Made by a program: the position numbers and the translations under genes. The notes under the pieces were generated by a model that saw only the letters and a list, made by a program, of their open reading frames with translations, was not told where the DNA came from and searched no databases. From Neckera pumila (Eukaryota > Streptophyta > Bryopsida > Hypnales > Neckeraceae): a stretch of DNA of 64,000 nt. Positions 5,101 to 57,290 of this stretch are shown in pieces. The stretch lies in contig OZ018416.1 in NCBI GenBank assembly GCA_963969595.1, positions 21,840,065 through 21,904,064 on the forward strand. The letters run 5' to 3'. How positions within the stretch are numbered: position 1 is the first letter of the stretch; each line of letters opens with the position of its first letter.

Positions 5101-5448
5101 TTCCATTGTGACACGGCATGAAGTTCACCTTTTTTCAAAGGATTAACAAATTCATGGAATTTGAGGAATTTTCGACGGTCGGATGGGGACCATGGTGGCG
5201 AATCCACGTTCACCCATCGGCTACCACACCCGCGCCCGCGATGCCACCCGCATCCAAAATCCACAATCCGCGATCCACATTCGCGACGCGTGCGACGACC
5301 AGCTCGCAGATGAGGCTGCTGCTGGACTCCCCCAAACCCAACAAAATTCCGACCAGCATTGCGAATTTCGAGCTTCGGTTTTACAGTTCTCTTGAAAATT
5401 TCTTAGAGTTTGCATTTCTCTTGAGAATTTTTGGGTTTGCGATTTTTG

Positions 5449-9895: not shown

Positions 9896-10648
9896 TTAAC
9901 CCCTAAAGGACCAAACGGCGTTTTTTGGCAGCATAGCAATTTTGGGCAGCTCACTACAAATGGAAATTTTATTTTTTTTCTTTGAAATTTTCACACAATA
10001 TGTGCCCAAGGAGTAGCTTCAAGGCCCAACAATTTTTAGAACTTTTGACTATATATGGTTAAAAAGTTATTGGATGATATGTCATTTTCAACGTTCGGCG
10101 GGCAACTCAATTTTTTTTTTTAAATCACTTTTTTTTAAAATAAAAATTTAAAATTGGTCCTTTAGATTTACATATATGTGGAAAGCTTTGAATCATTCCA
10201 TTTTATTTATGAGATGAAAACTATAAGGTATTCTAGATTGCGAGCAATTATAGATTCTCTACTCTAAAATAAACTTTGGAGTTCTTTATTTAACTCAAAT
10301 TTTAATATTTTTCAAAATAAATAAAACCATAGGATGTATTTTGTTTATTACAACATTACAACCGTTGGGATTGGACATTTTATAATTCCATAATTAAATT
10401 CTTAACAAATCTAGTGTTTTGAATCATTCTCTACTTCTTTCTATTTACGATTTTTTTCCTATATGTTGTACAACTCCAAATGATTTGAAAATCTTCAAGC
10501 ATGTAGCCAGTGCACTACAAGATCCTAGGGTTACATAGGTCCAAAAATATTTTTTTTTCTAAAATTTGATACTTGTACTAGAAATGACAATTTTGGAGCA
10601 GTTTTGATGAAAACATACTTAACATAGTCAAAAACCTTTAAAGGTTAA
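9896..10648 (+). mobile_element. R1-family element, copy a (internally deleted)
   Basis: Starts TTAACCCCTAAAGGACCAAA and ends near CCTTTAAAGGTTAA, an imperfect inverted terminus. The interior matches the other R1 copies (GCAATTTTGGGCAGCTCAC, ATGTCATTTTCAACGTTCGG). At 753 bp it is about 180 bp shorter than copies b to d and lacks part of their right half. No coding capacity, so non-autonomous. Confidence 0.75.
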
Positions 10649-12887: not shown

Positions 12888-13820
12888 TTAACCCCTAAAG
12901 GACCAACATGCGTTTTTTGGCCATATAGAATTTTTGGGTAGGTACGTACAATTAGAGATTTCCATATTTTAGGCTGAAATTTTAATAGAATGTGGGGGCA
13001 AGGAATATCTTTCATATGCACCAAGTTTCATGACATTTGGAAATACAAGTCAAAAGTTATGGCCTAATATGTTACTTTTTTTCGTAACTAGGCAGTCCGG
13101 ACAGATCAGAAAAATTCACTTTTTTTGAAAACATAAATTTGAAATTAGTTTTCTAGAGTTATATATAGGTAAAAAGCTTTGAATCATCCCATTTTGATCA
13201 ATGAGTCAAAAGTTATGAAGATTTTAAGTTTGCGGGCAATTATGGATTCTCTACTCTAAAATAAACTTTGAAGTCCATTATCTTACTCAGTTTTCAATAT
13301 TTTTTGAAAAAAATAGAACCTTAGGATGTAGATTATTTATTAAAACATTGCCGCCATTGGGATTAGCATTTTTCAATTCCATAATTAAATTCTTGACAAT
13401 TTTGTATTTTGAATCATTCTCTACTATCATCTACTTACTATTTTTTTCCTATATGTTGTACAACTCTTAATAAAGTGAAAATTTTCAAGCATGTAGCCAA
13501 CTTGTCTAGGAAAAAGAATCCAAAAAAGCACCATCATTTTGGACATTTTTTCATTGAAGAGTGAGCTTGTGAAGTGCTGCTGCCCTGTTTTTTGCAGGGC
13601 CCAAAAAATGGTTTTAGTGAATTTGAATGCTCATATCTTGCAATCCACGGGGTGGAAATTCCTGAAATTTTTAACATACGTTCTCAAGTCACCATACTAC
13701 AAGATCCTATGGTTACATGCGTCAAAAATAGTTTTTTTCCAAAAATTGGATACTTGTACTTAAAATGGCAATTTTTGAGCGTTTTTGGTGAGAACATAGT
13801 CATGGAACTTTAGGGTTTAA
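12888..13820 (+). mobile_element. R1-family element, copy b
   Basis: 933 bp from TTAACCCCTAAAGGACCAAC to an imperfect inverted ACTTTAGGGTTTAA. It shares its full interior with copies c (43232-44156) and d (55356-56296), including GTGAAGTGCTGCTGCCCTG or close relatives and the GCATGTAGCC segment. No ORF of coding character. Confidence 0.8.
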
Positions 13821-14760
13821 GAGCAATGAACAAGAGTTGAAGAATTTTGAGGCACAAATTTATTCCAATGTAATTATTATCAAATTAAAAATTATTAGCA
13901 ATTTATAAATTGGTGCATTTTCATTACCACTTATTTAATGTTCTATTATCATTAATTGCTCTTCTATAAGTTTTATTTTTGTGGTGCTAACTTTGTATAT
14001 GAAGGTGTTATGCTTTGAATTCACCTTAAATGTATTTTATGTTTGTGGATAATGCAATCTTGAACTTTATGGATTGTTAGAAAGATTCAATGAGCTATGG
14101 TTGTGATTGAGGCTACATGAAAATTAAAAAGTTGGCTTCATACCAAATACATTTATATTGAGAACGGTTGTTTCCAAGGGCATCACACTTTGGATCTTGC
14201 TTGAACCTTTGGTTTCTAAAGCAACACAAAATACATAGCACAAATTTAAGATTTAAAAAAGCCATAACCACTATATCTCTAGAAATCACAAATAAACAGG
14301 AAGAAAGTCTAACAATAGTGATAGAGGGAACAAGAAGCAAAAGGCGGCAAGTTCTAAGAGGTAACAATAAGCAAGAGGTGAGATACAAAATGACATTAGA
14401 GAAAATTTCAGGCCTTTGGAGGGCTGCTCCACAGCCCTTCGAGATATCCTGAAATTTATTTATTTTTTGCTCAAAATTTTTTTTTTCTCCTATTTTTCCC
14501 GTGCTGAAACTGCAGCAGTAGTGGCTCAGGAACCCATAATTCCGAATAATATTTTTTTTAAATAATAATAATAATAATAATAATTTTTTTTTTAAATTAA
14601 ATTTTAAAAAAAATTCTACAAAACTTGACTGCTCCAACGAGCAGTCAGAGACTCTGACTGCTCACCAAGAGCGTTTTTTAAGTTGACAGGCCATGCAAGA
14701 AATAGCATGGCATGACAACTTCGGACAACCCTCCATGGGGTTGAATTTTTCTTTGTAGTA
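13821..14760. other. Intergenic with short inverted and AT repeats
   Basis: No gene seen. An (AAT)n tract lies at about 14560-14583. A small inverted repeat built from GACTGCTC and GAGCAGTC lies at 14628-14665. Confidence 0.45.
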
Positions 14761-23065: not shown

Positions 23066-23303
23066 CTTGCCTACCTTAGTTGGGAAAGAAATCTCCAGCC
23101 CAGGGTCCGGAAGGTCCAGTTCTGTTCTCCAGTTTTGCAGAGCTGGAGGCCAGAGGTCTAGGCCTGGACCCCTCCAGCCCCCCAGTGGCAATCGGCTTTT
23201 AGACCATCTGCAATGCAACAATGGCAGAAAGGCCTTGTAACAATACATCCACGAGGCCTCTTAAGTACCAATTCTTTCCTTGGAAATTTTGCCCCAATGC
23301 AAA

Positions 23304-23592
23304 TATGGTTGTCATATCGGACAGAATTTTATTGTTCACGGACGAATCAGACGAATCTGCGTTGACTGGCTGCAAACTTTGGAGGCCAATAACTTTTGAA
23401 AAAATTGTCCAAATTGGGCGTGTGATATATTTTTCGGCATCTACAGTTTCTGTAGATGCCGAAAAATATATCACACGCCCAATTTGGACAATTTTTTCAA
23501 AAGTTATTGGCCTCCAAAGTTTGCAGCCAGTCAACGCAGATTCGTCTGATTCGTCCGTGAACAATAAAATTCTGTCCGATATGACAACCATA
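23304..23592. repeat. Perfect inverted repeat, 143-bp arms with a 3-nt loop
   Basis: Every base of 23304-23446 pairs with 23450-23592; the centre is CTACAG-TTT-CTGTAG at 23441-23455. Both strands therefore give almost the same open frame, which explains mirrored ORFs here. The flanks (CAAA at the left, AATGC at the right) stop matching at once. It could be a foldback element, a small-RNA precursor or an assembly artefact; perfect identity means it is young or maintained. No known miRNA sequence was recognised in the arms. Confidence 0.95.
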
Positions 23593-24024
23593 AATGCAAA
23601 AACGGCATCCAAACGTCAAATGGACTTTACGATATTATAAAAAGAAAGGAAGAAAAGAATTTACATTAAAGAAAGGACTTTTCAGGGAAATAAGGAAGGT
23701 TGAATTGATTAGCGCACATACCAAAAAAAAATTCTTGGCATCCATTGGCTACTACCACTTTTTGTCATGATGACTCCCATCAATCAACTTGCCGAGAGTT
23801 TTGCCGGGGTTGGCAAAATGACAAAATATGCCAATCCCGGGGGGTCCCATACCGAGCCCGTGAAAGTAGAGGTCTCCATATCGATTGCATTGGAGCACAA
23901 TTTTAAATCAGAATTCTTGTCCTTGCACAATGCCGATACAGTGCAAGGTGCCGGTTGCATTGTAGATGGTCTTACTTCTCTAGTGGGAATCGCTTACAGA
24001 GAGACTCAAATTTATTGGACCTAA
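23593..24024. other. Spacer between hairpin and MITE; weak ORF
   Basis: An 85-codon frame at 23767-24024 (starting MMTPINQLAESFAGVGKMTK) ends at the MITE boundary. No domain recognised; it may be a gene remnant. Confidence 0.3.
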
Positions 24025-24536
24025 GAGCATCGCCACCTATTCACTGCTAAGCTCTCAGACCGGGGTTTGGGCGGGGCCAGGAAGAAAAAGCGAGCCACCC
24101 ATTCACGGGGAAGGGACAAAAGAAGACTAGTCACTCCAAAATGAGCTCTCCAAACACTAGCTCCCCGTCCCCGCCACGCTTTGACTTGGGCCTTGATCTT
24201 ATTGGCTTTGTTGGTTAGTGGGCCATTTCTTAACTTTTTTTAATCGACTAGCATTTTGGTTGGCTTTGTTGGTTAGTGGGCCATTTCTTAACTTTTTTTA
24301 ATCGACTAGCATTTTGGTTGGCTTTGTTGGTTAGTGGGCCATTTCTTAACTTTTTTTAATCGACTAGCATTTTGGTTGGCTCTTAGTTATGACAAGTCAT
24401 TAATGCATGAGTTTGTCTTGTTTTGGAGTGTGCGCTTCCTGCGAATGGATGGCGCATGGAAAGCGGCCTAGAAGGAGGCGGGCCCCGGCCACCCCATTCC
24501 CCGAGCCGTTTTTGTGGAGAATGGGTGGCGATGCTC
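24025..24536. mobile_element. MITE, 512 bp, TAA target duplication
   Basis: The ends are GAGCATCGCCACCTATTC and, inverted, GAGCATCGCCACCCATTC. TAA flanks both sides (24022-24024 and 24537-24539), which fits PIF/Harbinger-type elements. Both subterminal parts are GC-rich (GGGCGGGGCCAGG near the left, GCGGGCCCCGGCC near the right). The interior holds a 58-bp minisatellite (24202-24375). Confidence 0.85.
24202..24375 (+). repeat. 58-bp minisatellite, three identical units
   Basis: Units start at 24202, 24260 and 24318 with TTGGCTTTGTTGGTTAGTGG and end CGACTAGCATTTTGG. A partial fourth unit begins at 24376. The copies appear identical, so the expansion is recent and lies inside the MITE. Confidence 0.92.
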
Positions 24537-24539
24537 TAA

Positions 24540-25850
24540 GATAAAGGGAGATGAAGAAGTTCAGAGACGCTATTCAAATATGATACACAAAAGATAGAAG
24601 AGGTCATTCAAAAGTTGAATTGGTAGATTGTTGTTCTAAAATTGTACTGTACAGAAATTCGACGTTTTCTATGTCTTCATGTTGTATGTTTTGTAATGAG
24701 TATCTACTCATTCTCTAAATTTTGTAGAGCACATTCGCTATTCAAATTAGAGGATCTAGTTGACAATCGTTCTTGAATGGCAGGGAGTTATTAATTTTTA
24801 ATTGCTAACAAATTTATCGGACCCAAGGTAAAGGGAGATGAAGAAGTTTAGAGAAGCTATTCAAATATAATAGATTAAAAATAGAAGAGGTCATTCAAAG
24901 TTGTTTTTTAATAGCATCACCCCTAATAGCTGAATTGGTAGATTGTTGTTCTTTTTAAGATTGTTCATAAATTTAACGTTTTCTATATCTTTGTGCTGTA
25001 TATTGTGTAATGAGTATCTATTTATTCTTTGAATTTTATAGAGCACATTTGCTATTCAAATACAATATGCAAAAGATATAAGAAGATCTAGCTGACAACC
25101 GTTCTTGAGTGGCAAGGACTTATCAACTTTTAATTGCTAACAAATTTATTGAACCAAAAGGTAGATGAAGAATTTCAAAGATGCTATTCAAATATGATGC
25201 GTTAAAGATATAAGAGGTCATTCAAAGTTGAATTGGTAGATTGTTGTTCTAAGATTGTACACAAATTTGATGTTTTCTATGTCTTCATATTGTACATTGT
25301 GTAATGAGTATTTACTTATTATCTAAATTTTGTAGAATACATTTGCTATTCAAATACAATATGCAAAAGATATAAGAAGATCTAGCTGACAACCGTTCTT
25401 GAGTGGCAAGGACTTATCAACTTTTAATTGCTAACAAATTTATTGAACCAAAAGGTAGATGAAGAATTTCAAAGATGCTATTCAAATATGATGCGTTAAA
25501 GATATAAGAGGTCATTCAAAGTTGAATTGGTAGATTGTTGTTCTAAGATTGTACACAAATTTGATGTTTTCTATGTCTTCATATTGTACATTGTGTAATG
25601 AGTATTTACTTATTATCTAAATTTTGTAGAATACATTTGCTATTCAAATACAATACGCAAAAGATATAAGAGGATCTAGCTGACAATTGTTCTTGAATGG
25701 TGGGGTGTTATCAATTTTTCATTGCTAACAAATTTATTGGACCTAAAGACAGATGAAGAAGTTTAGAGATGCTAATCAAATATGATGTGCAAAAGATATA
25801 AGAGGTCATTCAAAGTTGAATTGGTAGATTGTTGTTCTAAAATTGTACAC
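24540..25850 (+). repeat. Tandem array of ~294-bp units, about 4.5 copies
   Basis: GATCTAG-TGACAA marks unit positions 24753, 25085, 25379 and 25673; the last three are exactly 294 bp apart. The two central units are nearly identical; the outer ones are diverged and one carries an extra segment (TTTTTTAATAGCATCACCCC). Each has GAATTGGTAGATTGTTGTTC and TAATGAGTATTTACTTATTA-like parts. The GATCTAGCTGACAACCGTTC part is shared with the exon-like fragment at 22528, so the array seems to have grown from a piece of it. Confidence 0.85.
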
Positions 25851-26065
25851 AAAAGTTCATGAGTCTCTACTCTATAAGTGGTTCTGTAATTTAAAAGCAG
25901 CCTACTTTAGAAATTCAAAAAAATTCTAATTTTAATCAAAAAAATTCTAATTCTTCTTGGTTTTGATTTGTGAAACAAGTACACACCCGTTTGGAAAATA
26001 TGTGCCCTTTTGGAGTTGGCCCCAAGATATTCCTATTACTAATTAGGGTGGTAATAGGCTTGTAT
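25840..26065 (+). repeat. R2 dispersed repeat, copy c
   Basis: Directly follows the 294-bp array. Shares TATAAGTGGTTCTGTAATTT, GAAACAAGTACACACC, TGTGCCCTTTTGGAGTTGGC and TTAGGGTGGTAATAGGCTTG with copy b. Confidence 0.7.
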
Positions 26066-29035: not shown

Positions 29036-29049
29036 TTGCACCATAACAC
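29036..29049 (+). repeat. Left flanking direct repeat (target duplication) of element B
   Basis: TTGCACCATAACAC, identical to 40247-40260 immediately right of the element. At 14 bp it is longer than the usual 8-11 bp of MULEs; some matching bases may be chance. Confidence 0.8.
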
Positions 29050-29175
29050 GGGGATGCTAGTATGTGAGCCTATGAGCATGAGCCTGTGAGCTTGTGAGCC
29101 TATGAGCCTATGAGCCTTCAATTTTTTTTTTGAAATTTAGGGTTTGTAAATTTGTTAAAGACCTATGACCGTGGA
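29050..29175 (+). repeat. Left terminal inverted repeat of element B
   Basis: GATGCTAGTATGTGAGC, then CTATGAGC, ATGAGCC, TGTGAGC and TGTGAGCC units, a T/A spacer, and ACCTATGACCGTGG near 29160. It matches the right end in order and sequence, with mismatches. Confidence 0.85.
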
Positions 29176-29748
29176 ATTATATAAAAGGATCTACAATCCA
29201 AATGAACAACAAATGAATATGCCACCTTGTGATTTTGTACCAAAAATTGATCTATAGGCCTTCATGTAAATTTAAAGAATGAAAATGGTCCACCTATTTT
29301 ATTTTATTTTTATAACTATGCTTTAAAATTTTAAAAATATCTTGAACATGTAATACATAAAATAAACATAGTAGTCATATTTTATATACCAAATGAATGT
29401 GTAAATCCCAAATGACCTAAACCACTATTTTTCTAGTTGATGCCCTTTTGGAGGGAACTATTTTTAATTGATTTCATAATTAATCTAATGGTAGTAGTTT
29501 CATTGAATTCCAAGTTAAATTCAACTTCCTAAAATTTCATATAGTTTAGTGGTGGAGTATAAATCAAGGCTCATAAAGTATTGGCAATTTAGGCACAAGG
29601 TGAAGTTTTAGGGCAGCAAATGGGATTCGAATTGCTACACTGCTACATCATTGCTATGTTCAAATTACAAATTGCTACATCATGTATAGGCAAATTCAAT
29701 TTGAAAAACAAGACAATAGGAATAAAATATCAAATTATGAAAATAAAC

Positions 29749-32700
29749 TTAGATTTTGTCTGACTCAGATGCACTGAGTTCAAAATAAGAACATACTCTA
29801 GGATCATAAGATCTACGAGGAGATTGAGAAATTGAAGATGAATCAAATGAATCATTAGCATAAGCTAATGCTAAATCTTCAGCATAAACAGGGAGGCCAC
29901 GAGGACTAAGAGAGGGACTTCTAAAAAATCCAGGGTGCTGATAAAAAGGCAAGGTTTGCCTTGGCAATGGAGTCATCCAACTGCAAACAATAAACCATAT
30001 ATCAAAAATGGAGTAACAAATTAAAATACAAGGTATAGGATTTATAATTGAAGTTGTTGAAAAGGAATAATATAAGTAGAATAATATAAGAACTTACTTA
30101 CATAAGTCAAGTAGTGCAACGTCTTCAATTGGAGAGTCATCATCAATGTCCATACCATCACATGTGGTAGTAGAATCTAGATTTTTGGAGATGGTTATAG
30201 GTCTTTTTAGAGGCTTCAGTACCTCATCAAAGAGTTTGACATCACTTTCTAGTGCAAGGATATGGGGATTAGAAGAATGTGCCGCTTTAATAGAAGAACC
30301 TGAGTGAAACACAATATATAAATTATGAAACATCAAAATTGAAGAATAGAATTAAAAATCAAACAAAAAATAGAGAAAGAAGTAAGTCAATATTGTAGAT
30401 TACAATACCTGTAGAGGCAGTCATGTCTGCTACAATGCCACCTACAGGACTCAAGCCATGAACAAGAAGCTTCATTAGAACCTCAGACTTTTCTTTTGCA
30501 CCCCTCCATGGCTTGCCATCTTCCTTTCTACATAATTGACTTGCTATAGTAACAGAATTGAAGAGGACGTCGTTTGTGGCTAAATCAACTTCGGGAATAG
30601 AAGGATCATTAGTAATCACAAACTCCCGAGGCTGCCTTGTAATGGGAGAAGCAAATGATCAAACCAACAATAAAGCCTTGAACTTCATAGTCTGGAATGA
30701 AAATAAAATGAAATTAGAAAGTGCGCATAAAATCAAAGGAAATACAATAAAAAATGAATCAATGACAAAAATGAAAGTTTGAAATTGCAACTTACTTTTT
30801 TAGTTGGATTCATAGGATTAGCCAAGTGCAAACAATTAATGATAGTCCACTCATCCTTGACCTTCAACTTGTAGTTTTTGAAGAATCCTGCCACTTCTCT
30901 CTTCACCGTCAAACTATCAGGATAAAATAGAAGGAATGCTCCATCATCATAAAGATAGGTGAGACAGAATGCCATCATTATTTGGAGAAAACTTGGAATG
31001 TTGGCATTCCAGTGGGGAATTTGAGATGGTGGATTTGAAACCCCTGGAACTGGAAAACCATCTGGATAATCCGCAATGATGAGATCCACTGTAGGTTTCT
31101 TTTGAACTTTACCATCAAAAAAGAACTCCCTACCTTCACCAACCTACAAAGACAAATTTATAGAATGTTAATTCATAATTGAAGATGTTAAAGGCACAAA
31201 ACATTATGAATTCAAAGAGATGGATTTTGTAGAACATGTAAGATTTCATAACAATAAAACATGAAATAGCAAAGAAAATTAATAAAAAGAATGAACTCAC
31301 CTTTGATAGAAAAGATACAATGTCGTCATATGGCGCGCCAAATGTACCAGTCTTCTTTTTCTCCTCGATAATTCTAACAAAAGAATCATTTAAGATCAAC
31401 TCCAAGGATGTACGAGGGGACAACAAAGGAGCTAAAGTACCCATCATACCTTTAAGTTGGGGAGGAAGCTCAAAGATAGGAGAAGAAGTTGGCACCAAAA
31501 CCACAGGAGTAGAAATAGTCTTTTGTCGCTTTGAAGGGGGGAGGGTAGCCTCAACATATGAAGAAGAAGGTCCAGTAACAAGAAGGTCCAGTAACAAGAA
31601 GGTCCTTGAGACTATCTTCAATTGGCACATCTTCATTGGAATCATCAAGATGAACTATTTCTTTCTTTGGCTTAGATTTTGTCTTTCTTGTCTTCTTGGT
31701 TGCATCCTTATCCATCGTTGTAACTACGATTGTACCTTTAAGTGCAGGTTCAATGGAATCTCGAAGGGCAATGTCAAAAGTAGGAGGTCTTTTGAGAGGA
31801 CAATCCAAATACCACCCACACTTTTCCCAATGCAAGGGATCCCAAGAACTCATGATCCCCTCTGTGAACATGCAATCTTCACTTTCTTTGTCCAAGTAAT
31901 TTGCAAAGAAAGCAGGAGATTTGGAAATGGCTTTAGCAGGAAAAAGAATATACTTGAAGTATCTGTAAAGCACCCTTTGCATAACTGGTTTGAAGTTCAG
32001 CTGTTTATCAATCTTATGGTTCTTGTGGATCCCCTTATCCACATCAAATTCACGGAAAAATGCAGCATCCCACAACAATATGCGCATTGACTCTACATAA
32101 TCAAAGATTGTGGGCAAAGGATCCATACCATCTGGAAGATAGTTAATAGACACTCCCAGATCAGCTATTGTGGCATCAAATAGCTTTTCTGTTTCAACAG
32201 CCAACTGTGACATACAAAATTTAGATTAGAAGAATGTTATGATTGAACAAAAAGGTTCAAAGGAAGAATATGAAAAAAAAAATAAGACTAGTACTCACCT
32301 GAGCCCACCATGTAGCTTTATGAAACCACTCGGGGAAGTCAATATCATTGAATTTTGATTTAGGAAATTTGAGCGCTTTGCAAAGAGAAGGAGACTTGTT
32401 CCACCTCTCTAACCACTTGATCTTCATAGAAGTGTCCATTGCTGAAGTTGCTAGCATCCAAAGTTTCTCTTGAGTCATCTCTGGACTTTCATCGTGAGTT
32501 TCATAGTGAAACTTCACTTGCTCTAAGAAGGCAGTCGTGTGTTTTGGATCTGCAATAGGAAGTTGTTTCCTCAATTCAGAATGAGAAGCTATCTTGACCT
32601 TGTCAACAGCTTTAGAGACCCATTCATGAACTGCAGATGGAGTCCAATCTGCTGGATTGGGATATTTCTCATAAAATTTCCTTTGAGCAGCTGCAGCAGA

Positions 32701-34511
32701 CTCTCCCAACTTTTGCTGCATAAGATAATTGATGTATAAGAATAAGAAAAATGACACACGATGACAAATGATATATACAATGATTCATAGGATATTAATT
32801 CAAATTAACAATAAGAACAAAAAGAAGACATAAAAATTGAAAACAAAATATAAAGTGGCTAATAAAACTTTAAAAATTTACCTGGTATAAGACTCCGTTT
32901 AGAGCCTCAAGAGTGAGAGTGAACCATGTTCTTTGTTTTGACTTCTGCTTTGCTTCATCTGCAACAAGATCATCTTTGGAGACAAGTTTTCAAAATATGA
33001 GAGTGGTTGGCCAGCAATACTCTGAATGCGATAAAGTTTGTGAACAAGATTTATAGATTCATGGGATTTTTGGTTTCTCCTGGACAAACAAGATGTATTG
33101 TGTTAAAATTTGTGAAGTGAATATGAAAAAAAAAAAATATAGAATAGCAACAATTCCAATGTTTCAAACCAAACAACCTTTAGTGACTAAGAAGTGAAAT
33201 GAACCAAACTTTGATAAATAAAGAAAAGAGATTACCAATTCACTTCATATAATGCTGCCAACATAGTTGCAATATCTCCCTTAACCTCCAAAATAATACT
33301 TTCAACCACGTAATGTCAGATGAAGTCATCTGCATGATTGCGGTTGATTATAGGCAGCCATGCTTGTAGACGATGGTTGCCATCCCATACCATAAACATC
33401 TTGCCCGCAAAAACTTTGAGATCTTCATCATTTTCCAATTCTTTCTCAAATGCAACATTGGCCCTCACCCAATTGGCACTCCAGGATTTAACAATATCAT
33501 CCGTGACATCTATTGTCTTTCCTTCATTGTCCTCCAAAGCCACATAAAAAACTCCATTTTCTTCCATGTAACCGCAAGTAACAAAATGTGCAGCAAGGTT
33601 CATAACGTCATTCTTCAAAAAGGGCCTCACAACTGGCAAAGAAATCATACGACACAAAAGAATGTTGATTTTTGATTTTGCCTTTGGTTGATACCTCAAC
33701 CGCTCAAGAAGAGAAGATGTGTTGACAGTCTCTTTCTTCAAAAAGCCATGCAACTGTAACTCCAATTGATCCTCAGAAAGAGGCTGGTGTACGACATCTA
33801 ATCCCGGTGCATCTGGATCTCTTTGTGTCATGATCTCTGTAATGACATCAAAAAAAGATTAATATGTAATTTGACATAACAATTGTTAACTGTTGCAGCT
33901 TAGAAAGGCTCCAAAAATTTAGCATTGAAGGAAATCGTAATATACATAGCAAGCAAATTTATGTTCTAGAAGAGGCTGCCGTTAACAGCTAAGGTGTAGG
34001 ATGCTAAAACATTTGAGCAATGAATCTGAAATTTGAACCACGATGGAAAAAATTCTACGTCCCGAAAAGGGCTGCCGTTAACGGCTAGGGTGTAGGATGC
34101 TAAAACATTTCAGCAATGAATCTGAAATCTGAACTGCAGTGGAAGAAATTCTACATTCCAAAAAGGGCTGCCGTTAACGGCTGGGGTGTGAGAAGGTGAA
34201 AAATTACTATGTGCGACCTAATTTCTAATGCGCAGAATAGGAAAGTTTGACTCCCGAAAACGGCTGCCGTTAACGGCTGGGGTGTGAGAAGGTGAAAGAA
34301 ACTGCGCCATTGGACGGAATCCTAGCATACACTATTCTAAATCGGAACCCAAAAAAGCGCAGCCATTAACGGCTGGGGTTTAGAAAGGCCAAGAAAAAAG
34401 CCGCATACTTGGATTTCCTTCAATGCTTGCACTTGTCTCGTGATTTCTTCCTTGTCCATCTTGCCGCACAGATTCCGCTGTAGCCTCCACCGCAACCTCC
34501 GCCTCTTCCAT
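29749..34511 (-). pseudogene. ParB-like / beta-class DNA methyltransferase-like protein, copy B (nine exons)
   Basis: Inferred exons, 5' to 3' on the minus strand: 34511-34409, 33836-33236, 33079-32882, 32715-32299, 32204-31301, 31143-30796, 30691-30409, 30299-30098, 29980-29749; phases join to about 1,090 codons. Exon 2 has a ParB-like core, VWDGNHRLQAW near residue 185, followed by ALYEVNWRNQKSHESINLV, which resembles the ParB ENxQR region. Exon 5 is a Lys-rich linker. Exons 6-8 have methyltransferase features in beta-class order: DLIIADYPDGFP at the motif IV place (about 757), then a PVGGIVADMTASTGSS motif I (about 945) and HILALESD. The canonical (D/N/S)PP(Y/F/W) is not intact, so catalysis is uncertain. 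Breaks: TGA at 33318-33316 and 30661-30659, one-base loss near 32990, and a 16-bp duplication at 31567-31598. Fold assignments are by eye. Confidence 0.72.
33971..34390 (+). repeat. Five palindromic boxes at exact 96-bp spacing in intron 1 of the methyltransferase-like gene
   Basis: GCTGCC-type boxes start at 33975, 34071, 34167, 34263 and 34359, each step exactly 96 bp. The core is the perfect palindrome GCCGTTAACGGC in the middle three; the outer two have one change each. The sequence after it, TGGGGTGTGAGAAGGTGAAA, is kept in units 3 and 4. The rest of each unit has diverged strongly, while the palindrome has not. The array lies at 33837-34408 (intron 1), near the start of the divergent region. 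Its role as a protein-binding array is an inference. Confidence 0.9.
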
Positions 34512-36111
34512 GGTGATCGCTTCTTGTCCCTCCCTCGTTGGTTGTTGCCTCGGCGCCTTCAAAGACGACGTTCAAAGACAACACAAGAGTTAGCGTGAAA
34601 CTGGTCTCCAAAAAGAAAAAAAAAAACCCAAGGAAGAGATTGGTAGATACAGCTCAAGGGAATCTTCTAAATAACTTCTTCCATTTTTAAGATTTCAAGC
34701 CAAAAAATTTTATACCCATAGATTATACACGTCAAATTCACTCCAATTTTTTTCAGAATTTTAGAACACTTGAGCGAATTTACAAAAATCAGCAAAAATT
34801 GCTAAAAATAAAAGTGCTGGATTTTGCCTAAAAATCATCAGAAACTGAACATTTCAGGGAAGATTCTAAGATGCTGAATTATTTTTTAGGGCATAAGATA
34901 CTCAATATTTGTCCATTTTTTACATGCTATATACCGTTGGAATCGGGCTTTCGACGCGCATGAAACGATGCAAAGTTGCAAAATCTGCCTCTAAGAAAAA
35001 ATTTCACATATATTCAAACTCAATATCACTTGGGATAATTATTTCCTTACCATTGTGTTTGTGCTTCCTACCTCCTGCTCCAATTCCACTGTTGGGGCTA
35101 TTTGTTGTTGTTATTCTTCCTCCTCTTCTCCGTTAATATCTTGATCCCAATCACTACAACTTGAGGCAATATCTGGTTGAGCTTCGCAAGAGACGGATTC
35201 AACTTCCACGTTATCTTCTCCAATTGCTTCACATGAAACAATACCTTCATACGTCAAATTCCTCGTTGTGCCAGACAGATCAACCGCACTAATTAGAGGC
35301 ACCCATCTAGTCATTCTAGCCCTTAACAATTGCTTTCTACTTGAATAACAAAAACTACTTTTCTTCCTCCTCTTCTTCCTACCTTGAACTGGAGTGTCTA
35401 ACGCTAACAATGGAGAAAACAAATATCCTTGCATCTGAAATAATAAACTAGTAGGGCCTTACAATATCAACATCCTCCAATCCTCCATACTACATCACCC
35501 ACTTCTTGCAACATGCGTTTCTACATACTGCTTCATTCCACTCTGCAACCTTTCATATTCTAAGGAACTTCAACAGCTATTCTCCACAAAATTGGAATTC
35601 AATTTTATAAATAAGTGACGGCTTCATATGTCTGTTATTCATATTATCATCAATGAAAAAACCTTTACCTATCTCAAGATATGCAATTATCATTGCAAGT
35701 ATGTCAGGGATCGTGCAATATAAGGCATTTTGATCTATCGTCTCCTATCAGTGCCAGCTCTAATTCTACTAACATTGTCTGACAGAAAATGATACATTGT
35801 CAGTATTATAGTTCATTTATTATTTCTGATTTACTAATTGATATTATGCAGTACGCCGCCTTACCCAACTTCATTTCAAATGTTGTTGATATATCTTCTT
35901 CTAGAGCAAATCTTGATATGATACGCAATAACAAGCATTGAAATCATCAATCAAATTTCAAATTGTACGGCATCCCTGATATATGTCCGTTCATTTTAAA
36001 CAACCGTAGAAGCTTTCATTCTTCTTTATATTCGCACCCCTTGCATTTGTAAACATCATTGCTTGCTTCCTAATGCTGCAACTTCACTGCAACTTTATGT
36101 AACACTTCAGT
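34512..36111. promoter_or_regulatory. Divergent intergenic region of element B
   Basis: About 1.6 kb between the start codons of the two oppositely transcribed genes; it must hold both promoters and 5' leaders. No single TATA box stands out. It contains the candidate ORF 35111-35434. CACTTCAG just before the ATG at 36112 resembles a splice acceptor, so the transposase gene may have an upstream leader exon. Confidence 0.5.
35111..35434 (-). CDS. Candidate small third ORF of element B, 107 aa
   Basis: An ATG-started frame of 107 codons between the two main genes, on the same strand as the methyltransferase-like gene. It has a basic cluster GRKKRRKK near residue 20, which could act as a nuclear localisation signal, and a strongly acidic tail (SDWDQDINGEEEEE). 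There are no in-frame stops, unlike the two large genes. I recognise no domain. It could be an accessory transposon protein, an upstream exon of the methyltransferase-like gene, or chance; AG-GTATTG inside the frame is a possible splice donor. Confidence 0.4.
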   Translation of the reverse strand: MQGYLFSPLLALDTPVQGRKKRRKKSSFCYSSRKQLLRARMTRWVPLISAVDLSGTTRNLTYEGIVSCEAIGEDNVEVESVSCEAQPDIASSCSDWDQDINGEEEEE

Positions 36112-39100
36112 ATGGCTACTATTGTTGCAAGAGGTCATGAGGTCCCATTTGTTTTACCATTAGGTAGTCAAGGTTTTGTACATGTGCCCGCCCATCTCCT
36201 TCATGTCCCCTTTGGGTTCTCCCCTTCTTCTATTGTCATAGAAGAAGAAGTCCAAGATGACTATGGGGTTTTTAAGGAATCAATCTTGCAATCAAAATGT
36301 AGTGATCAAGAAGGGTTCTACTGGCTTCTTTTTGCAGGGCGCTTCAGAGTTTATGGTCTCTCGCCTGAGCTTTTGCCAACTTCAACTGAAATACTGACAC
36401 CCCTTCCTGATAATTCCAATGCTGAACTCCCACTTGTATGTCCAGTCAAAGTGGAATCTCTAGCTAGTGGATGGTCTGAGAATACAGTTATGTTCAATGT
36501 CAATAATGTCAAACGCGAGTCTCTAGAACCAGTCATAGAGTTATCAAGTGATTCTGAAGGCGAGACACCAATTCAAGTCTGTCAATCTTCTTCTTCAAAT
36601 GTTGCTTTGCCACCTACTGTGGAGTCATTTGTTCCTACTACCTTTCGTTCTTCCTTTAGTAGTCCCGCATCGTCTGGATTTTCTCGTCCTCCTCTTCCTC
36701 CCAATCATCGTGATTCCCTAACTGTATTACAGTGTCTACACAAATTGTCTTCTATGCCCGGATCACGGAATGAACTTGCCCAAATTGATTTTGATGCCAT
36801 TGAATATCAGAACGTCCAATTCCTCTCGGCTAGATTTGATGGTGATGTTCTTTTTGAGCTACCGCCGTGTCGTGGATCCACATGTGGGTCTAGGGGCATG
36901 GAGGGCATGGATAAACAATATGATGGTCATGCATGGAGTCGCACTATGACCTCTAACATCCATAACGACCTCAGTTTAAAATCCAAAAAGTCGCATTGTG
37001 TTGGGCATTTGATTTGTAAGAATCCGAAATGTGACTATTGCACACGAGCTTCAAAAAGTAACGAAACTGAGTGGATTGGGACTACCAAGCATCCTTTCAA
37101 CATAGGCCAGATTCCTCCACTAGAGTCTACTGTGCTTTGTAAAGTTTGTAGACATCCTCCTACTTGTCTCAGTCTATGTAACTCGCGGATTTATTATGTA
37201 CAGAGAACTACAAATTTGTCACGTGCAGCGATCCACTTGGGTGTTCATTCACATCCAGTTGCTGATGGCCAGTGTAGAGAGTCTCTCGAAGCAATCACCG
37301 GATTGATTGCTCACGAAGTGGCAAAGACTCCAACTGCTAAAACTTATGCCATTACCATAGCGGCAAGCAAGGAGTTCTTTGATACATTTTTTATTCACAA
37401 TGGACCCAGACCAAAGGAGATGCTCCATGGTGATGCATTAGAGAATGTCATGGATAAGTTCCAACTCCTTAGCTCGCCGAATGTGCGGAATATGATATCT
37501 TCTTTTAGGAACAACAACAAAGGAGGTGGTGAGATTCATCGGATTCTTGACATGAAGGGACGTGCCAAAATGGAGTATATCCATGATAGTGTATTTCCAG
37601 GACAAGGACAAGAGAAGGTCTATTTGTTCAAGATGCTTGTGGATGGACTTGGGAGCGGTGTTGATCTTGTACGACGGATGCAACCAAATGGCGACCTTGG
37701 AAATTGCTTCATCATGTTTGACCATGTGAAGAGGGTGAAATTATGGACAACTATTGCTTGTCACGTCTATGACTCTACTTATTGTAAAGTCATGACCATT
37801 GCCATCTGTGATATGCAGACTGAAGGCACCAAAGGTCAGATCATTTTTTGGCGTTGTCTGAATAAGGTCATGGCACAAAATGGGATGTCAAATCCAACCT
37901 TCAAGGGATTCATGTGCGATAGTGCTCAAGCCAACTTCAATGCAGTTCGCATTGTATATGGGTCGGGGGATCCATCCCTTCCAATGGTGGATCGTGAAAG
38001 GACTTGCTTGTTTCACTGGGCAACAAGTATGCACAAGCATACAGAGAAGCTAATTGCAAAAGAGTTCCAAAACCAGCATATCCGACTGTGCAAGCAATAT
38101 AAGGATGCAATATCAATGTCCAAGGCGGACAAGATGTATCTAGAAATTAGAGCGTGGTGGTATTCCTCCGGAGCTGCATCAGAACCGGTCATTCGTGAAC
38201 TTGAGGATTGACTGGCCTTTTGGCACTTTCGATATCGGCAGTGGGGTGGATTCATGGAAACGGTATGATCTTCACTCTCATTCTTTTTTTCATATTTTTT
38301 TCTACATTTCAAACCAATCCAATAATGACTTCATCATCATCTTTGCAGAAACTGACAACTGAAGAACTAGCAGACATCCCAACGTGCAACCTTGCAGAAA
38401 CAGTGCATAATAAATGGATGCAAGCTTCTGGCAAACGCGGGTCTGATTTGTTTGTAGCCACTTGCAATGATTGGGTTTGAGCTTTTATGCAAATGACGAA
38501 TTATAGGGCTTATCTTTGCGGAGGCCCTTCTGGGAAGGGCCCCTCTAAAGAAGATTTGAAATTGAAGAGAGCTATGGCATCTGGAGATGGGAAGAAAATT
38601 GCAGACGCTCTAAATCAGATGCCTGGAGCGGAAGACATCTGCACCCGAATTCCGCATTTGAAGGGAGAAGAGGTATTTGGGTCCGGCAAAAGAAAATTGG
38701 ATCTTCCAATCGGTTCTGAAGGTGATTCTCATCGCCCTGACAAGGTGAACTTTTCCCATCCTCGAGTTCAAATTAGATCAGCCGTTGCTAGTGTACAAAT
38801 CGGGGCTGAAAGTGAGGAATTTAATACAGTCATGCCCCATACCCAATCTGTGGTGGAAACAGATTGTAATACATCGGAGTGGCACATAGCGAGAATTTCA
38901 CACAAGTCAAGGAAGCAATGTCATGCCATTCAGAAGTACACACAAGCCAAATGCAAGCTACTAATTGTTAGACATGGTAAACCTACTGCTGCTCCTACTT
39001 ACAAAGGACAAAAGCGTGAATATAAGGGCACGGCTGTTCAGACCGAGGATTTCTGATTTTGTGCAGATCAAATTGCACGATGTGTCATGGGACCTAAACG

Positions 39101-39731
39101 TTCTCATGTTCTTACACGACCCGAGATTCCTAACGTCTGGCCTGTTCTTACTGGTACCAATCTTACTCGTACTGAAATCATAGAGTTGGAAGAAGCTGGA
39201 TTTCACCTGCAATCTAGTGTGCCAATGTCACCTCGACGTCTATTCACCTCATCTAGGGTATTTGAGCCTATGCTCTGGACTCATCCTCGACCAGCACATG
39301 CTGAAAGAATCCCTTCCATTCGAAATGGCAAGCAAGTTCGACGGAGTAGTAAGGCGCCCACTAAAAATCATCGCAATCAGTGGGAAAGTGCAAGGAATGT
39401 TACTGCAAGTATTACTAGTGTAAACTTCCTTCCTTATCCTGGACTTGGTGCTATTATTACGCTTTCTTCTGGGATTGAACCTAATCAGAAGGTTTATAGC
39501 ATTACTCTCTGCAATTTCCCATCTTGTACTTGTCCCCATTATGGAAGTATGAATGGGATGTCCATTGGAAAGCGTGGCATGTACGTTAACTGCAAACATC
39601 TTTATTATGTCTTTCGCTATTTGTGCAAATTGGATTATAAGATACATCCATTCATCCACGCTCCTACCCTCAGCTTGGACGAAGTTAAACAAGTGCTTAT
39701 TACGGCCGGAATCATCAAGACATACAAGTGA
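36112..39731 (+). pseudogene. MULE-type transposase with GCM/FLYWCH-like and SWIM zinc fingers (three in-frame TGA codons)
   Basis: Exons 36112-38262 and 38349-39731, joined in phase 0 across an 86-bp GT-AG intron, give about 1,177 codons. Residues 1 to about 240 are Ser/Pro-rich and unassigned. A WRKY-GCM/FLYWCH-like zinc finger spans about 295-381 (HCVGHLICKNPKCDYC ... GVHSHP). The MULE-type DDE domain follows: FDHVKR with D537, CDMQTEGTKG with E571, FKGFMCDSAQANF with D603, then CLFHW (C632, H635). The C-terminal SWIM finger is CTC at 39525-39533 and CKH at 39591-39599. It would cut and move element ends bearing the TIRs. In-frame TGA occurs at 38209, 38478 and 39054 with good coding sequence on both sides of each (for example AFWHFRYRQWGGF after the first). 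No frameshift was seen. Confidence 0.85.
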
Positions 39732-40054
39732 CCAAGTTAATTGACAGATATTAGCATGGTATAAAGTAGATATGTAGTACCGATATATTATCTTCAAAAT
39801 CTCCAAATTTGAGTAGCAAATTATTATATTTTTATTCCAATATGAATTCCTTGCTGCAATGAAAGAATATTTTATTATGTACACAGTGTTCCATGTCCTA
39901 TGATATTTTCATTGCATTTTTCTTCTTCTCATCTTTGAAATTGCCTCTAAATTATATATACTCTCACTTAATTGGTCCACCCTTGGACGGCCTCTCTAAA
40001 TGTAATATAAATTCCAAAACATGCAATAACGCCAACTTCCCAGGCTTTTAGATA

Positions 40055-40246
40055 TAAAACCCACGGTCATAGGTCTAGTGGTAATAGGGCATCTTTTCTA
40101 AATATAATAAACAAAATCAATCTTTTTACATTTTAACCAAATAAATTCACAAATTACATCAAGTTTTTTATTTTCAGGCTCTAGGCTCACACAATCCCCG
40201 CTCACCGCTCTCAGGCTCACGCTCACATGCTCACATGCTAGCGTCG
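40055..40246 (-). repeat. Right terminal inverted repeat of element B
   Basis: On the minus strand from the outside: GACGCTAGCATGTGAGCATG, TGAGCGTGAGCC and further GTGAGC units, an AT spacer, then ACCTATGACCGTGG at about 40058-40071. It pairs with 29050-29175. Confidence 0.85.
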
Positions 40247-40260
40247 TTGCACCATAACAC
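40247..40260 (+). repeat. Right flanking direct repeat (target duplication) of element B
   Basis: TTGCACCATAACAC, the second copy of 29036-29049. Confidence 0.8.
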
Positions 40261-43231: not shown

Positions 43232-44156
43232 TTAGCCCTTAAAGAACAAAACGACATTTTGTGACATCATGGTGATTTTAGACAGCTCATTATGAACTAA
43301 AATTTTGTTTTTTTGCTTTGAAAATTTCACAAAATATGTGCCCAAAGAGTAGCTCTAAGGCACAACAATTTTCGAAACTTTTGATTACATGATTAAAAGG
43401 TTATTGGATGATATGTCATTTTCAACAGTCGGCGGGCCACTCAAAAAAATTCAGAAAAATCACTTATAAAAAAAATAGAATTTTGAAATTGATTTTCTAG
43501 ATTTATATATACGTGGAAAGCTTTGAATCATTCCATTTTGATTTATGAGATGAAAATTATGAGGAGTGTTCTAGATTGTGGGCAGTTATGGATTCTCTAT
43601 TCTAAAATAAACTTTAAAGTCCTTTATTTAACTCAACTTTTAATATTTTTTGAAAAAAATAAAAGCATAGGATGTAGATTATTTATTACAAAAATTGGGA
43701 TTGACATTTTTCAATTCCATAATGAAATTCTTAACATTTAGTATTTTGAATTATTCTCTACTTCTTTCTACTTACTATTTTTTTCCTACATGTTGTACAA
43801 TTCCAAATGACGTGAAATTTTTCTAGCATGTAGCCAACTTGCTTTGAAAAATGAATGCAAAGAGTAACCACCATTTTTGACATTTTTTCATACAAATGTG
43901 ACCTTGTGAAGTGCAGCTGTCTGGTTTTTTGCAGGGCCAAAAAAAGGATTTTTGTCAATTCAAACACTAATATCTTGCAATCTACAAGGTGGAAAATTTT
44001 GAATTTTTTTCTACATATTCTCAAACGAGCTTACTACAAGATCCTAGGGTTACATGTGTCCAAAAATCTTTTCTTTTCTAAAATTTGGTATTTGTACTAA
44101 AAATGGCAATTTTGGAGCATTTTTGGTGAAAATAAAGTCTTTGACCTTTAGGAATT
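43232..44156 (+). mobile_element. R1-family element, copy c
   Basis: Starts TTAGCCCTTAAAGAACAAAA and ends CCTTTAGGAATTGA. 925 bp, alignable over its length with copy b (12888-13820), including TCATTTTCAACAGTCGGCGG and GTGAAGTGCAGCTGTCTGG. No coding frame. Confidence 0.78.
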
Positions 44157-51982: not shown

Positions 51983-53612
51983 ACCCCAAAAACACATTAT
52001 CTCTTCAAAGGACAAAATGGATTTTAGGTGGGCTCATTTAACCCCTAAAGGACTAAGTTGCGTTTTTTGGCAACACAGCAATTTTGGGGAGCTTACTACG
52101 GATGGAGTTTTTATTTTTTTTCTTTGAAAATTTTACACAACATGTACCCAAGGAGTAGCTTTAAGGCCCAACAATTTTCGTAACTATTGACTACATAGTT
52201 AAAAAGTTATTGCATGATATGTGATTTTCTTTGAACTTTGGGCATCTCGGGCAGCTCAAAAAATTTCTTTAAAAATGACTTTTAAAAAAAATAAAAAATT
52301 GAATTTGTTTTTTTAGATTTATATATACATGGAAAACTTGGAATCATTCAATTTCAATCTATGAGTCAAACGTTATGAGGAGTTTTAGTTTGCGGGTAGT
52401 TACGGTTTTTAAAGACTCCATACCTACCCTCAAATTTAAAATCCTCATAACTTTTGACTCATAGATTGAAATTGAATGATTCTAGGTTTTCCATGTATAT
52501 ATAAATCTAAAGAACCAAGTTCCAATCTTCTTTTTTTTTTAAAAGTCATTTTTAAAGAAATTTTTTGAGCTGCCCGAGATGCCCAAAGTTCAAAGAAAAT
52601 CACATATCATGTAATAACTTTTTAACTATGTAGTCAATAGTTACGAAAATTGTTGGGCCTTAAAGCTACTCCTTGGGCACATGTTGTGTAAAATTTTCAA
52701 AGAAAAAAAATAAAAACTCCTTCCGTAGTAAGCTGCCCAAAATTGCTATGTTGCCAAAAAACGCAGCTTGGTCCTTTAGGGGTTAACTTCAATTTCTAAT
52801 GAGTTTTTTTGAATTTTTTTTGTAATATAGAAAATACATTATCTTATAAGGAAATAATTTTAATTTCAATTGGTGCCCAGTAGCAAAAATTATTCCACAA
52901 TAACTTTATAATGGGGGAGACAAGGTAGCAAAAATCCACAAAAAATTGCAATAAATTTTTTTATTTTATTTCCTCATACATTACATTTTAGCCGAAATGA
53001 AAAGCTTTGATTTATTCCATTTGAATATGTGATGTGAAAGTTTGGAGCTTCTTGCAATCAAAGTATGGTTTAACAAAATAAAGTATAGGATTCATTTTTG
53101 AACTCAATTTTCAAATTTTTTCAAATTAAAAAGTTCTACAAGGTTACCTTTGATTGTTAGTACAATCTCACCATTAAGATTAGTGTGTTCTAATTCCATT
53201 GTAGAGCTATTCATGTTTCAATTTTTTCCCCTATCACATATATCTACTTCTACTTAATAATTATTTAAAGAATGAAAATGACATTATTTTTTTTTTAATT
53301 TTTTTTCTCTAGAATCTCAATTCAATACTTCTAAATAAATTTTTTTAATTCAAAATGTATAGTGCAAAAATTTTAAGCTAAGAAGATTCAAAGTAAAATA
53401 ATATAGTCATGGAATGTGCACAAAAATCAAATTTCTTTATAGACTTTAAACGCACATATCTTGCAATCTATATGGTGAAAGTTTTTTGAAATTTTTCCTA
53501 CACATACATGTGCAAAAAAATCAATTTGTAATGTTTTTTCTCTTTGCAATAGAAATGGTAATTTTGAGTGTTTTTTTATGAATGAAAGGCCTCTGGACTT
53601 TAGAAGTTAACT
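51983..53612 (+). mobile_element. R1b subfamily element, copy 3, split by a foldback R1 element
   Basis: Opens ACCCCAAAAACACATTATCT and CAAAATGGATTTTAGGTGGG, is interrupted at 52038-52786, resumes with TTCAATTTCTAATGAG, and ends near CTGGACTTTAGAAGTTAA. The order matches R1b copies 1 and 2. Confidence 0.55.
52038..52786. mobile_element. Foldback R1 element: 749-bp inverted repeat
   Basis: Two R1 left halves are joined head to head. The left arm starts TTAACCCCTAAAGGACTAAG and the right arm ends with the inverse, CCTTTAGGGGTTAA. Arms of about 370 bp pair closely throughout around a centre near 52412. Transcription of either strand would give a long hairpin RNA. It sits inside an R1b element. 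No ORF. Confidence 0.88.
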
Positions 53613-55355: not shown

Positions 55356-56296
55356 TTAACCCCTAAAGGTTTTTGACTATGTTTTCACCAAAACTGCTCC
55401 AAAACTGCCCTTTCTAATACAAGTACCAAATTGTAGAAAAAAAACATTTTTGAACACATGTAACCGTAGGATCTTGTAGTACACTGGTTTAAGAAGATGC
55501 GGAAAAAATTTCAGAATTTTCCACCATGTAGATTGCAAGATAATAGCGTTTGAATTGACAAAAATCCTTTTTTAATCACTGCAAAATCCGGGCAGCTGCC
55601 CTTTATAAGGTCATATTTGTATGAAAAAATGTCCAAAATGGTGGTTGCTATTTGGATTCATTATTAAAGGAAAGTTGGCTACATGCTTGAAAATTTTCAG
55701 ATCATTTGGAATTGTACAACATATAGGAAAAAAATAGTAAGTAGGAAGAGGTAGAGAATGACTCAAAATACTAAATTGTCAAGAATTTAATTATGGAATT
55801 GAAAAATGCCAATCCCAGCGGTTGTAATGTTGTAATGAACAATATACACCCAATGTTTTTTGTTTTATTCAAAAATACTGAAAATTGAGTTAGAAAAAGG
55901 ACTTCAAAGTTTATTTTAGAGTAGAGATTCCATAACTACCCTCCAACTAAGAATCCTCATAACTTTTGACTCGTTAATCCAAATGGAATGATTCAAAGCT
56001 TTCCAAGTATATATAGATCTATAAAACCAATTTCAAATTTTAATTTTTCAAAAAAGTGTTTTTTTAAGAATTTTTTTGAGCTGCCCGGGCTGCCCGCCGA
56101 ATGCGAAAAATTACATATCATGCAATAACTTTTTACCCATAAAGTCAAAAGTTATTAAAATTGTTGGGCCTTGAAGCTACTCCTCGGGCACATCTTGTGT
56201 TAAATTTCAAAGAAAAAATTAAAAATTTCCCTTTGTAGTAAGGTGCCCAAAATTGCTATGTTGCCAAAAAATGGTGTTTGGTCCTTTAGGGATTAA
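55356..56296 (-). mobile_element. R1-family element, copy d (inverted)
   Basis: 941 bp from TTAACCCCTAAAGGTTTTTG to GTCCTTTAGGGATTAA. On the minus strand it follows the same order as copies b and c. It shows that both R1 ends can be close to the perfect inverted TTAACCCCTAAAGG. Confidence 0.82.
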
Positions 56297-57290
56297 ATTG
56301 GAAGTACCATGTGTCATTGAATTTGATGCACCATGAATAAATTTTTTTTATTATAACTATTGTATGCATCTATTCACGCACCTTGTATGTCAAGTACACA
56401 AAAAACAAATTGAATGGGCTTCTTAGACCCTATTGGGCTTTGTAGTCAAATTTATCACTTCAAGGAACTTAGACTACAAGTCAAATAGATATATAAAACC
56501 TTTCAAACTTTGGATGAGATTAGAATAGTTATCCCTTTGCAAATTAGGTTTCTTAGAGATTGAATGTTGAATTATCAAAATTATGGATTTTTGAGGATTC
56601 TTACAATGTTTATACTCATAATATAATTGTTGGTAGGCAAGTTTCAATTAGGTAGGCAAAGTGTAATAAGATGGGTAAAAACTAAAGCGTGGTCCATAGT
56701 AGTTATGTCAAATTCTTTCTACTTCTAAATTCTTAGTCACAATTAGAATGTGAGAATGAATTGGTTAGTCTGTCTTCATTGGTTTAAATTGGCAAGTTTT
56801 TGATTGCTAAAATTTAGAAAGACAAGTGGCTTTTTCTATGATTCTCAATCTCATAAATATGGCCCTTTGATGTTCCACCTTGATTACTAGTTTGCAAAGA
56901 GTCAATTCAATATGAATATGAATAGTGAACTTACTCAGCATAGTAAACTGTGAACAGAGGAATCAATTGGAAGTCTATAGATTGTCCTTTTGAGTATTTG
57001 TCATCTTGCACACTTGTGCTTGCTTTAAAGGTGGCCTTACTAGTATCAATCACTGGCACTTGCTCTATGTCGTTTAATTTGGAAGTGAACATCTCTCCAT
57101 TTTGGACCACAGTTCTTTACTTCCATTTCAACATTCTTCTCTTCTATCTATACCTTAAATTAGGTTTGTTTTGTTTGTTTTATTTTGTTTGTTTTATTTT
57201 GTTTGATACGTTGGGATTTCAAAATCTATGAGGTATTTGATGGCATTCTTGGTACCATTGAAAAGCTCTTTGCAAAGAGGGGTGCACATA
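56297..57290. other. Intergenic, no gene seen
   Basis: AT-rich. A GTTTGTTTTATTTT microrepeat lies at about 57166-57205. The 93-codon frame at 56950-57231 is T-rich and not convincing. Confidence 0.45.

Follow-up and report, generated by a model that had tools for sequence, protein, structure and literature searches.

A divergently paired transposase and ParB/DNA-methyltransferase-like gene in a MULE-type transposon family of Neckera pumila

In Ectocarpus, the transposon Sola1-1 carries, opposite its transposase, a gene of 1,104 amino acids (aa) with ParB and methyltransferase domains. According to that paper, green and red algal transposons are also known to encode proteins of this kind (refs 50 and 51 there, the latter being the Bostrychia genome), and these have been proposed to bind and modify their own element (PMC12477816). 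ParB-methyltransferase fusions also occur in phages, bacteria and archaea, as described in the accessible text of PMC12704722. In Arabidopsis, the VANC anti-silencing proteins of VANDAL MULEs target rapidly diverging noncoding tandem repeats (PMC10398659, available part), and the additions to MULEs named in the accessible portion of PMC6446971 are mudrB, vanB/vanC and, in 14 Phytophthora members, SET. Here we describe element B, a MULE-type transposon copy in a 64,000-nucleotide stretch of Neckera pumila contig OZ018416.1 (positions 21,840,065 to 21,904,064; hereafter “the window”), in which the transposase gene stands head-to-head with a gene encoding a ParB-like core and a DNA-methyltransferase-like C-terminus. 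We show that this divergent pair recurs in most close copies of the element and in distant subfamilies. The ref 50 mentioned above is reportedly Iyer, Abhiman and Aravind 2011.

How does element B compare with these systems? As in the algal Sola1-1, the gene opposite the transposase encodes both a ParB-like and an N4C/N6A-type methyltransferase-like domain in one protein, and its length is close (about 1,090 codons versus 1,104 aa). In contrast to Sola1-1, as described in print, the carrier is a MULE and the host is another one (PMC12477816). Motif IV of the gene described here is not DPPY. For algal transposons, both the concept and this type of gene have already been published; the version in a MULE of a presumed land plant, with an altered active site, appears to be new. 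The earlier note on this DNA had known of no described plant DNA transposon with such a gene. The gene type is not new for transposons, given those of brown, green and red algae (PMC12477816). Our literature search, conducted mostly without subscription papers, found no ParB-methyltransferase gene described in a land-plant transposon or MULE. Like VANC, the gene is an accessory of a plant MULE with noncoding tandem repeats; unlike VANC, for which the available text mentions no ParB or methyltransferase domain, its properties are read here from sequence only, whereas binding and the loss of silencing are experimental there (PMC10398659). The element has a putative zinc-finger, transposase and SWIM-like architecture like that of MULEs generally, and a duplication within their 8–11-bp range; the available part of that article names no DNA methyltransferase, with 0 occurrences of “methyl” as a word start (PMC6446971).

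The two genes of element B and the repeats between them are arranged as follows.
29049-40249: element B as a whole, MULE-type, 11,201 bp, with ends placed by aligning four further copies from the genome
36112-38262, plus strand: transposase exon 1, with a ubiquitin/PB1-like N-terminus, a WRKY-GCM1-like zinc finger and the start of the putative DDE region; one in-frame TGA
38349-39731, plus strand: transposase exon 2, with two in-frame TGA and, at its end, a SWIM-like C-x-C..C-x-H motif
33944-34406: repeat array separating the two genes, within intron 1 of the minus-strand one; five ~96-bp units, each holding a palindrome centred on TTAAC (GCCGTTAACGGC)
34409-34511, minus strand: exon 1 of the ParB-methyltransferase-like gene
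33236-33836, minus strand: exon 2, with the ParB/Srx-like core (WDGNHRLQAW); one in-frame TGA, at a position that is Trp in the family consensus
32882-33079, minus strand: exon 3, with a 1-nt frameshift
32299-32715, minus strand: exon 4
31301-32204, minus strand: exon 5, with a 16-bp tandem duplication (31561-31592) that shifts the frame
30796-31143, minus strand: exon 6, with the methyltransferase motif-IV position (DLIIADYPDGFPVP)
30409-30691, minus strand: exon 7, with the motif X/I region (GKPWRGAKEK..GGIVADMTASTG); in-frame TGA, Arg in copy L031
30098-30299, minus strand: exon 8, completing motif I and containing motif II (HILALESD)
29749-29980, minus strand: exon 9

The minus-strand gene, running from 34511 to 29749, has nine exons with GT..AG junctions, and the exon 8 donor at 30098, rather than 30102, preserves the frame into exon 9. 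The transposase forms a single frame of 1,177 codons over its two exons, with three in-frame TGA codons in all.

We searched the genome holding the window (339.5 Mb, 18 contigs) for both genes. The transposase search, with 64 of 825 first-look candidates scored, gave 69 matches; five of these rows are extra pieces of places already counted, which leaves 64 transposase places, the window copy included. The exon-2 search listed 150 matches from 478 candidates, a few being two pieces of one exon, and all 150 rows were compared with the 64 places in sets of 87 and 63. The ParB-like exon 2 lies divergently upstream, within 15 kb, at 36 of the 64 places, against a chance expectation of about 0.01 per place. 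No row of the second set (63) falls within 20 kb of any listed transposase place. Pairing follows transposase identity: 31 of 34 places at 76% or above are paired, and five of 30 below. Reading five upstream stretches directly, we found the gene in four (L031, L032, L033 and L035), and tblastn detected no ParB-methyltransferase-like gene upstream of the transposase in L034. L033 and L035 are distant copies that carry the gene although unpaired in the list, and therefore the count of five in 30 is a lower bound.

The pair also persists at considerable distances. A 12,147-bp element on C4 (L043/L044), from a third subfamily, holds both genes within its own 10-bp duplication, and is 42% identical to element B in the transposase and 34% in the exon 2-3 region. 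Across subfamilies with 42–59% transposase identity the gene pair is kept, the second protein being about 30–36% identical. A further relative lies within the window itself.
1-3285, plus strand: element A, the C-terminal part of a distant ParB-methyltransferase-like gene, with a terminal repeat like that of element B
Its layout is that of element B, as the earlier note had recognised: the transposase start (L048) lies ~9 kb beyond the window and ~12.5 kb before the right end, and the first 207 transposase residues compared are 33% identical to those of element B. Neither of the two outcomes that the note had named as refuting its reading was observed: the structure search and PHROGs returned matches of the expected kinds, and the family pairing showed other copies with the gene.

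Beyond these copies, scans of viral contigs and genome contigs found no relatives, and a protein-database search with residues 36-1000 of the spliced 1,091-residue product also came back empty, probably because the genes there are split into exons. As a separate observation, the same protein database holds 120 exon-2 relatives (P0024-P0143), spread over several sequence sources without informative names, and the ParB-like exon family seems to be widespread beyond this genome. Within the genome, an exon-2 group found at many places (e.g., C1:10160455 and C2:31033962) is 36–39% identical to the window's exon, often with an uninterrupted 192-codon frame. This group may have been amplified recently; one member, C4:7753672, pairs with its own transposase.

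The conclusion that exon 2 encodes a ParB/Srx-like fold is supported by structure modelling, through matches that are one-sided though individually weak. The exon 2 core was modelled with a pLDDT of 80.4. In the Foldseek search against the PDB, sulfiredoxins fill the top 14 places, and PadC, Arabidopsis Srx and SbnI come lower; altogether, 18 of 48 hits are of the ParB/Srx kind, none at E<=0.001, and all 17 VIA rows shown for the core are Noc, ParB, Srx, SbnI or PadC. Box II of the ParB/sulfiredoxin fold is a G-x-x-R motif, and DGNHR supplies it here, in addition to the overall fold predicted by the model. Each letter of DGNHR is conserved in at least 90% of 58 sequences, and the motif is present too in L033, L035, L045, L046 and element A; L043 reads EGNHR. 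Sequence comparisons gave less: the Pfam ParB_N profile has no match in the host genome, exon 2 alone has none in PHROGs, and the core found only weak, unrelated hits in the PDB by sequence.

The C-terminus, in turn, is DNA-methyltransferase-like, as profile matches support. PHROG DNA methyltransferases match four of the five proteins scanned, always on the motif I–II part: the joined exons 6–8 of element B match PHROG 3008 “DNA methyltransferase” (E=1.7e-4), element A matches PHROG 18293 (E=4.4e-7) and PHROG 3008 (1.8e-3), L033 matches PHROG 3008 (E=1.9e-6) and PHROG 18293 (1.5e-5), and L044 matches PHROG 18293 (E=4.5e-3). L046, which is without exon 8, had no PHROG methyltransferase match. 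On the same motif I part, Pfam N6_N4_Mtase stays below the cut-off (E=0.21 and 0.083). NCBIfam matched element B to a citryl-CoA lyase (E=0.17) and element A to a DNA methyltransferase (E=0.095). A tblastn search of phages with exons 6–8 gave 21 records on the motif I region, all at E>=1 and hence a hint only; of the 20 listed, 16 are annotated as a DNA methylase of one kind or another and four as hypothetical or unknown.

In the alignment, the motif IV position comes first, followed by X/I, with the S-adenosylmethionine (SAM)-binding motif I and the acidic motif II. This order, IV and then X/I, is the arrangement of beta-class DNA methyltransferases. The motif X-like stretch is PWRG[AP][RK]EK (PCWGARGK in element A), and motif I is [DG]-[IVL]-V-x-D-x-x-[AC]-[ASG]-x-G, followed by HI-x-ALE. 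The nine-exon gene, its ParB-like core and the placement of motif IV before motif I were all correctly read in the earlier note. The beta-class N6A/N4C catalytic motif IV is [DNS]PP[YFW]. At this position the family has D/N-x-P-[DE]-[GN] in place of DPPY: DYPDG in element B and L031, DVPEG in L033 and L035, DMPEG in L046, DCPEN in L045, NVPEN in L044 and DCHAN in element A. The D or N, the second P and the acidic residue recur in all versions read except that of element A. It is chiefly on account of this altered motif IV that we call the domain methyltransferase-like and do not claim methylation.

A single small phage gene resembles the plant gene in part. Gene 50 of the Mycobacterium prophage prophiT46-2 (L047, 408 aa) encodes an N-terminal ParB_N domain and a C-terminal beta-class N6_N4_Mtase, and its motif I block aligns with a six-sequence plant profile (hhalign E=1.5e-4, probability 51%). 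Unlike the plant gene, L047 has a canonical DPF-S-GSG motif I and a full Pfam match, and in the profile comparison the plant ParB-core profile does not align to it.

The assignment of element B to the MULE type is supported by its transposase and its duplication. The transposase contains WRKY/GCM-like and ISCth4-like regions; zinc fingers of the WRKY-GCM1 type that precede the catalytic domain are associated with MULEs. The C-x-C..C-x-H motif near the end, read directly, is kept in L030 and L043, and L003 has lost one of its cysteines; no Pfam SWIM match was obtained at the transposase C-terminus. The structure model of the transposase is poor in the catalytic part, and most of the best 50 of 520 Foldseek rows are unrelated, e.g., ion channels. 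Together with the duplication described below, the WRKY/GCM-like and ISCth4-like regions support the MULE type that the earlier note had read from the transposase.

The ends of the element were placed with the help of the other copies.
29039-29048, plus strand: left target-site duplication, CACCATAACA, 10 bp, its register taken from other copies
29049-29117, plus strand: left terminal inverted repeat, containing TGTGAGCC-type simple repeats
29159-29174, plus strand: left copy of the inner inverted repeat, AGACCTATGACCGTGG
40061-40076, minus strand: right copy of the inner inverted repeat
40176-40249, minus strand: right terminal inverted repeat, from alignment and comparison with other copies
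40250-40259, plus strand: right target-site duplication, CACCATAACA, 10 bp

The left end, starting at 29049, is CGGGGATGCTAGTATGTGAGC, and the right end, finishing at 40249, is CAACGACGCTAGCATGTGAGC as its reverse complement. Inward of both ends lie TGTGAGCC-type simple repeats and then the inverted CCTATGACCGTGG box, the core of the inner inverted repeat, which also occurs near the end of element A. The four comparison copies have right ends ..GTCGTTG (one ..ATCGTTG) and left ends GGGGATGCTA, with C or T before it. The inverted ends proposed in the earlier note are present (alignment score 54, against 28 for the best of 200 shuffles), but their match is imperfect and the true ends are 29049 and 40249. 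Similarly, its 14-bp direct repeat exists exactly (29036-29049 and 40247-40260), but the duplication is 10 bp. We rejected the 14-bp duplication because other copies give 10 bp, the right TTG and the left C being element sequence, with chance matches extending the repeat to 14 bp. A duplication matching at 10 of 10 bp was found in five of the six copies checked in their flanks, counting the window copy: the window copy, C6:17.77M, C3:4.16M and C3:26.50M (four of five by flanks) and the C4 copy of the distant subfamily, with a perfect AAGCCACCTA. No target-site duplication was seen in the flanks of the copy at C1:27.26M. MULE target-site duplications span 8–11 bp, and a length of 10 bp lies within this range (PMC6446971, available part).

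The array between the genes varies in length among copies. By a stricter core pattern it has four units in the window copy, six in L032 and 12 in L031. The gaps of other subfamilies hold repeats of different periods, 182 bp x 3.1 in L035 and 236 bp x 6.0 with a palindrome in L034, and TRF at periods >=10 reported no array in L033 or in the gap of L043. The comparison covers the copies whose sequences span the gap, and leaves out L044, L045 and L046, whose sequences do not. In L034 (C7:16114968-16122967), the six 236-bp tandem repeats, with the palindrome GTCGGATCCGAC, occupy 4142-5565, upstream of the distant transposase; L034 possibly belongs to a subfamily in which the ParB-methyltransferase gene has disappeared, been replaced or diverged strongly.

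The window copy of element B is dead and non-functional, in view of the stops in both genes and the two frameshifts in the minus-strand gene, and we accordingly rejected a functional window copy. The minus-strand gene is broken by the TGA codons in exons 2 and 7, the 1-nt frameshift in exon 3 and the 16-bp duplication in exon 5, none of which the earlier note had reported; the comparison copies L031 and L032 have neither the frameshift nor the duplication. The TGA in transposase exon 1 sits at a Trp position of those relatives reaching there. We also rejected TGA as a sense codon with a single meaning, because its positions are elsewhere Trp, Arg and once Gln, and some copies also stop there. 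Among three close copies (exons 2, 4, 6 and 7), the pairwise nonsynonymous/synonymous values (dN/dS) are 0.020/0.061, 0.023/0.035 and 0.023/0.041; they fit an earlier phase of selection that gave way to neutral decay, but are not decisive.

Elsewhere in the window, a peroxiredoxin (BCP/PrxQ-like) gene, apparently of several exons, occupies 5118-7688, with internal repeats at 5823-6527; a PDB search with its open reading frame at 7290-7688 hit a BCP homologue (E=1e-10). A 301-bp foldback-like stretch (23298-23598) is 97.7% identical to its own reverse complement, and ~750 bp at 52038-52786 match their own reverse complement at 93%, with parts recurring at 55922-56299, 43232-43599 and 9896-10250. 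A dispersed repeat of ~600–950 bp, at 75–82% identity, occurs in both orientations (43237-44152, 55362-56291, 12887-13821 and 9896-10509), and tandem repeats fill 24202-25853, with exact units 58 bp apart followed by ~290-bp units.

What would the second protein do? We lean towards reading element B as a decayed member of an autonomous MULE-type family with two genes, whose second protein binds and acts on the element's own DNA. The protein would bind this DNA through its ParB/Srx-like core, with the palindromic tandem array between the genes as its probable loading site. The SAM-methyltransferase-like domain would then act at the array, either modifying the element DNA or serving as a SAM-binding regulator, and the element would thereby be kept from silencing or readied for transposition. 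A more specific version, which we put forward tentatively and regard as doubtful, is that this plant MULE family has long encoded a system for DNA modification or silencing escape, guided by ParB and targeted to the element itself, whose non-canonical D-x-P-[DE]-G site makes an unusual, element-restricted modification or in which SAM is a signal. The replacement of DPPY weighs against the methylation part. With DPPY not conserved, the self-marking or protection by methylation suggested in the earlier note is no more than a possibility.

A serious rival, and the strongest, is a VANC-like anti-silencing factor that binds the array and removes silencing marks without methylating, the methyltransferase fold being a pseudo-enzyme or SAM sensor. 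This is a real possibility, if still an improbable one: none of the copies whose exon 6 was read has DPPY as its motif IV, and the noncoding gap holds an array of varying length (5, 6 and 12 units), as for the VANC targets of Arabidopsis MULEs (PMC10398659, available part), whereas the motif I and motif II acidic residue, kept across distant copies, would favour SAM binding. Next comes a transposition cofactor for integration or end synapsis, like mudrB of maize MuDR and unrelated to silencing. MULEs are known to carry accessory genes whose role is integration or is not known (PMC6446971) and the head-to-head linkage with the transposase is tight; however, the bacterial and phage relatives of both domains act in DNA binding and modification (PMC12704722, available part), and no result of the present analysis points to an integration role, so that we consider such a cofactor unlikely. 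It is very unlikely that the domain assignments are wrong and the folds are neither ParB/Srx nor methyltransferase, since separate copies each lead to the same PHROG methyltransferases and the top structure hits point one-sidedly to ParB/Srx. Finally, host-gene capture is common in MULEs (PMC6446971, available part), but a captured, functionless host fragment as in Pack-MULEs is extremely improbable, and was rejected together with chance co-location, given that 36 of the 64 places are paired, that the pair persists in subfamilies of 42–59% transposase identity, that element A has this layout too, and that there are at least 150 ParB-like exon matches, many without stops.

The reading of a second protein that binds and acts on its own element bears on whether transposons of multicellular plants can write epigenetic marks, beyond suffering or erasing them. 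The family is abundant, with at least 150 exon matches and at least 64 transposase places, and its second gene encodes what element-specific DNA recognition and SAM chemistry would require, alongside a candidate recognition array. Its many comparable copies, its altered catalytic motif and an array whose length varies between copies make this question testable.

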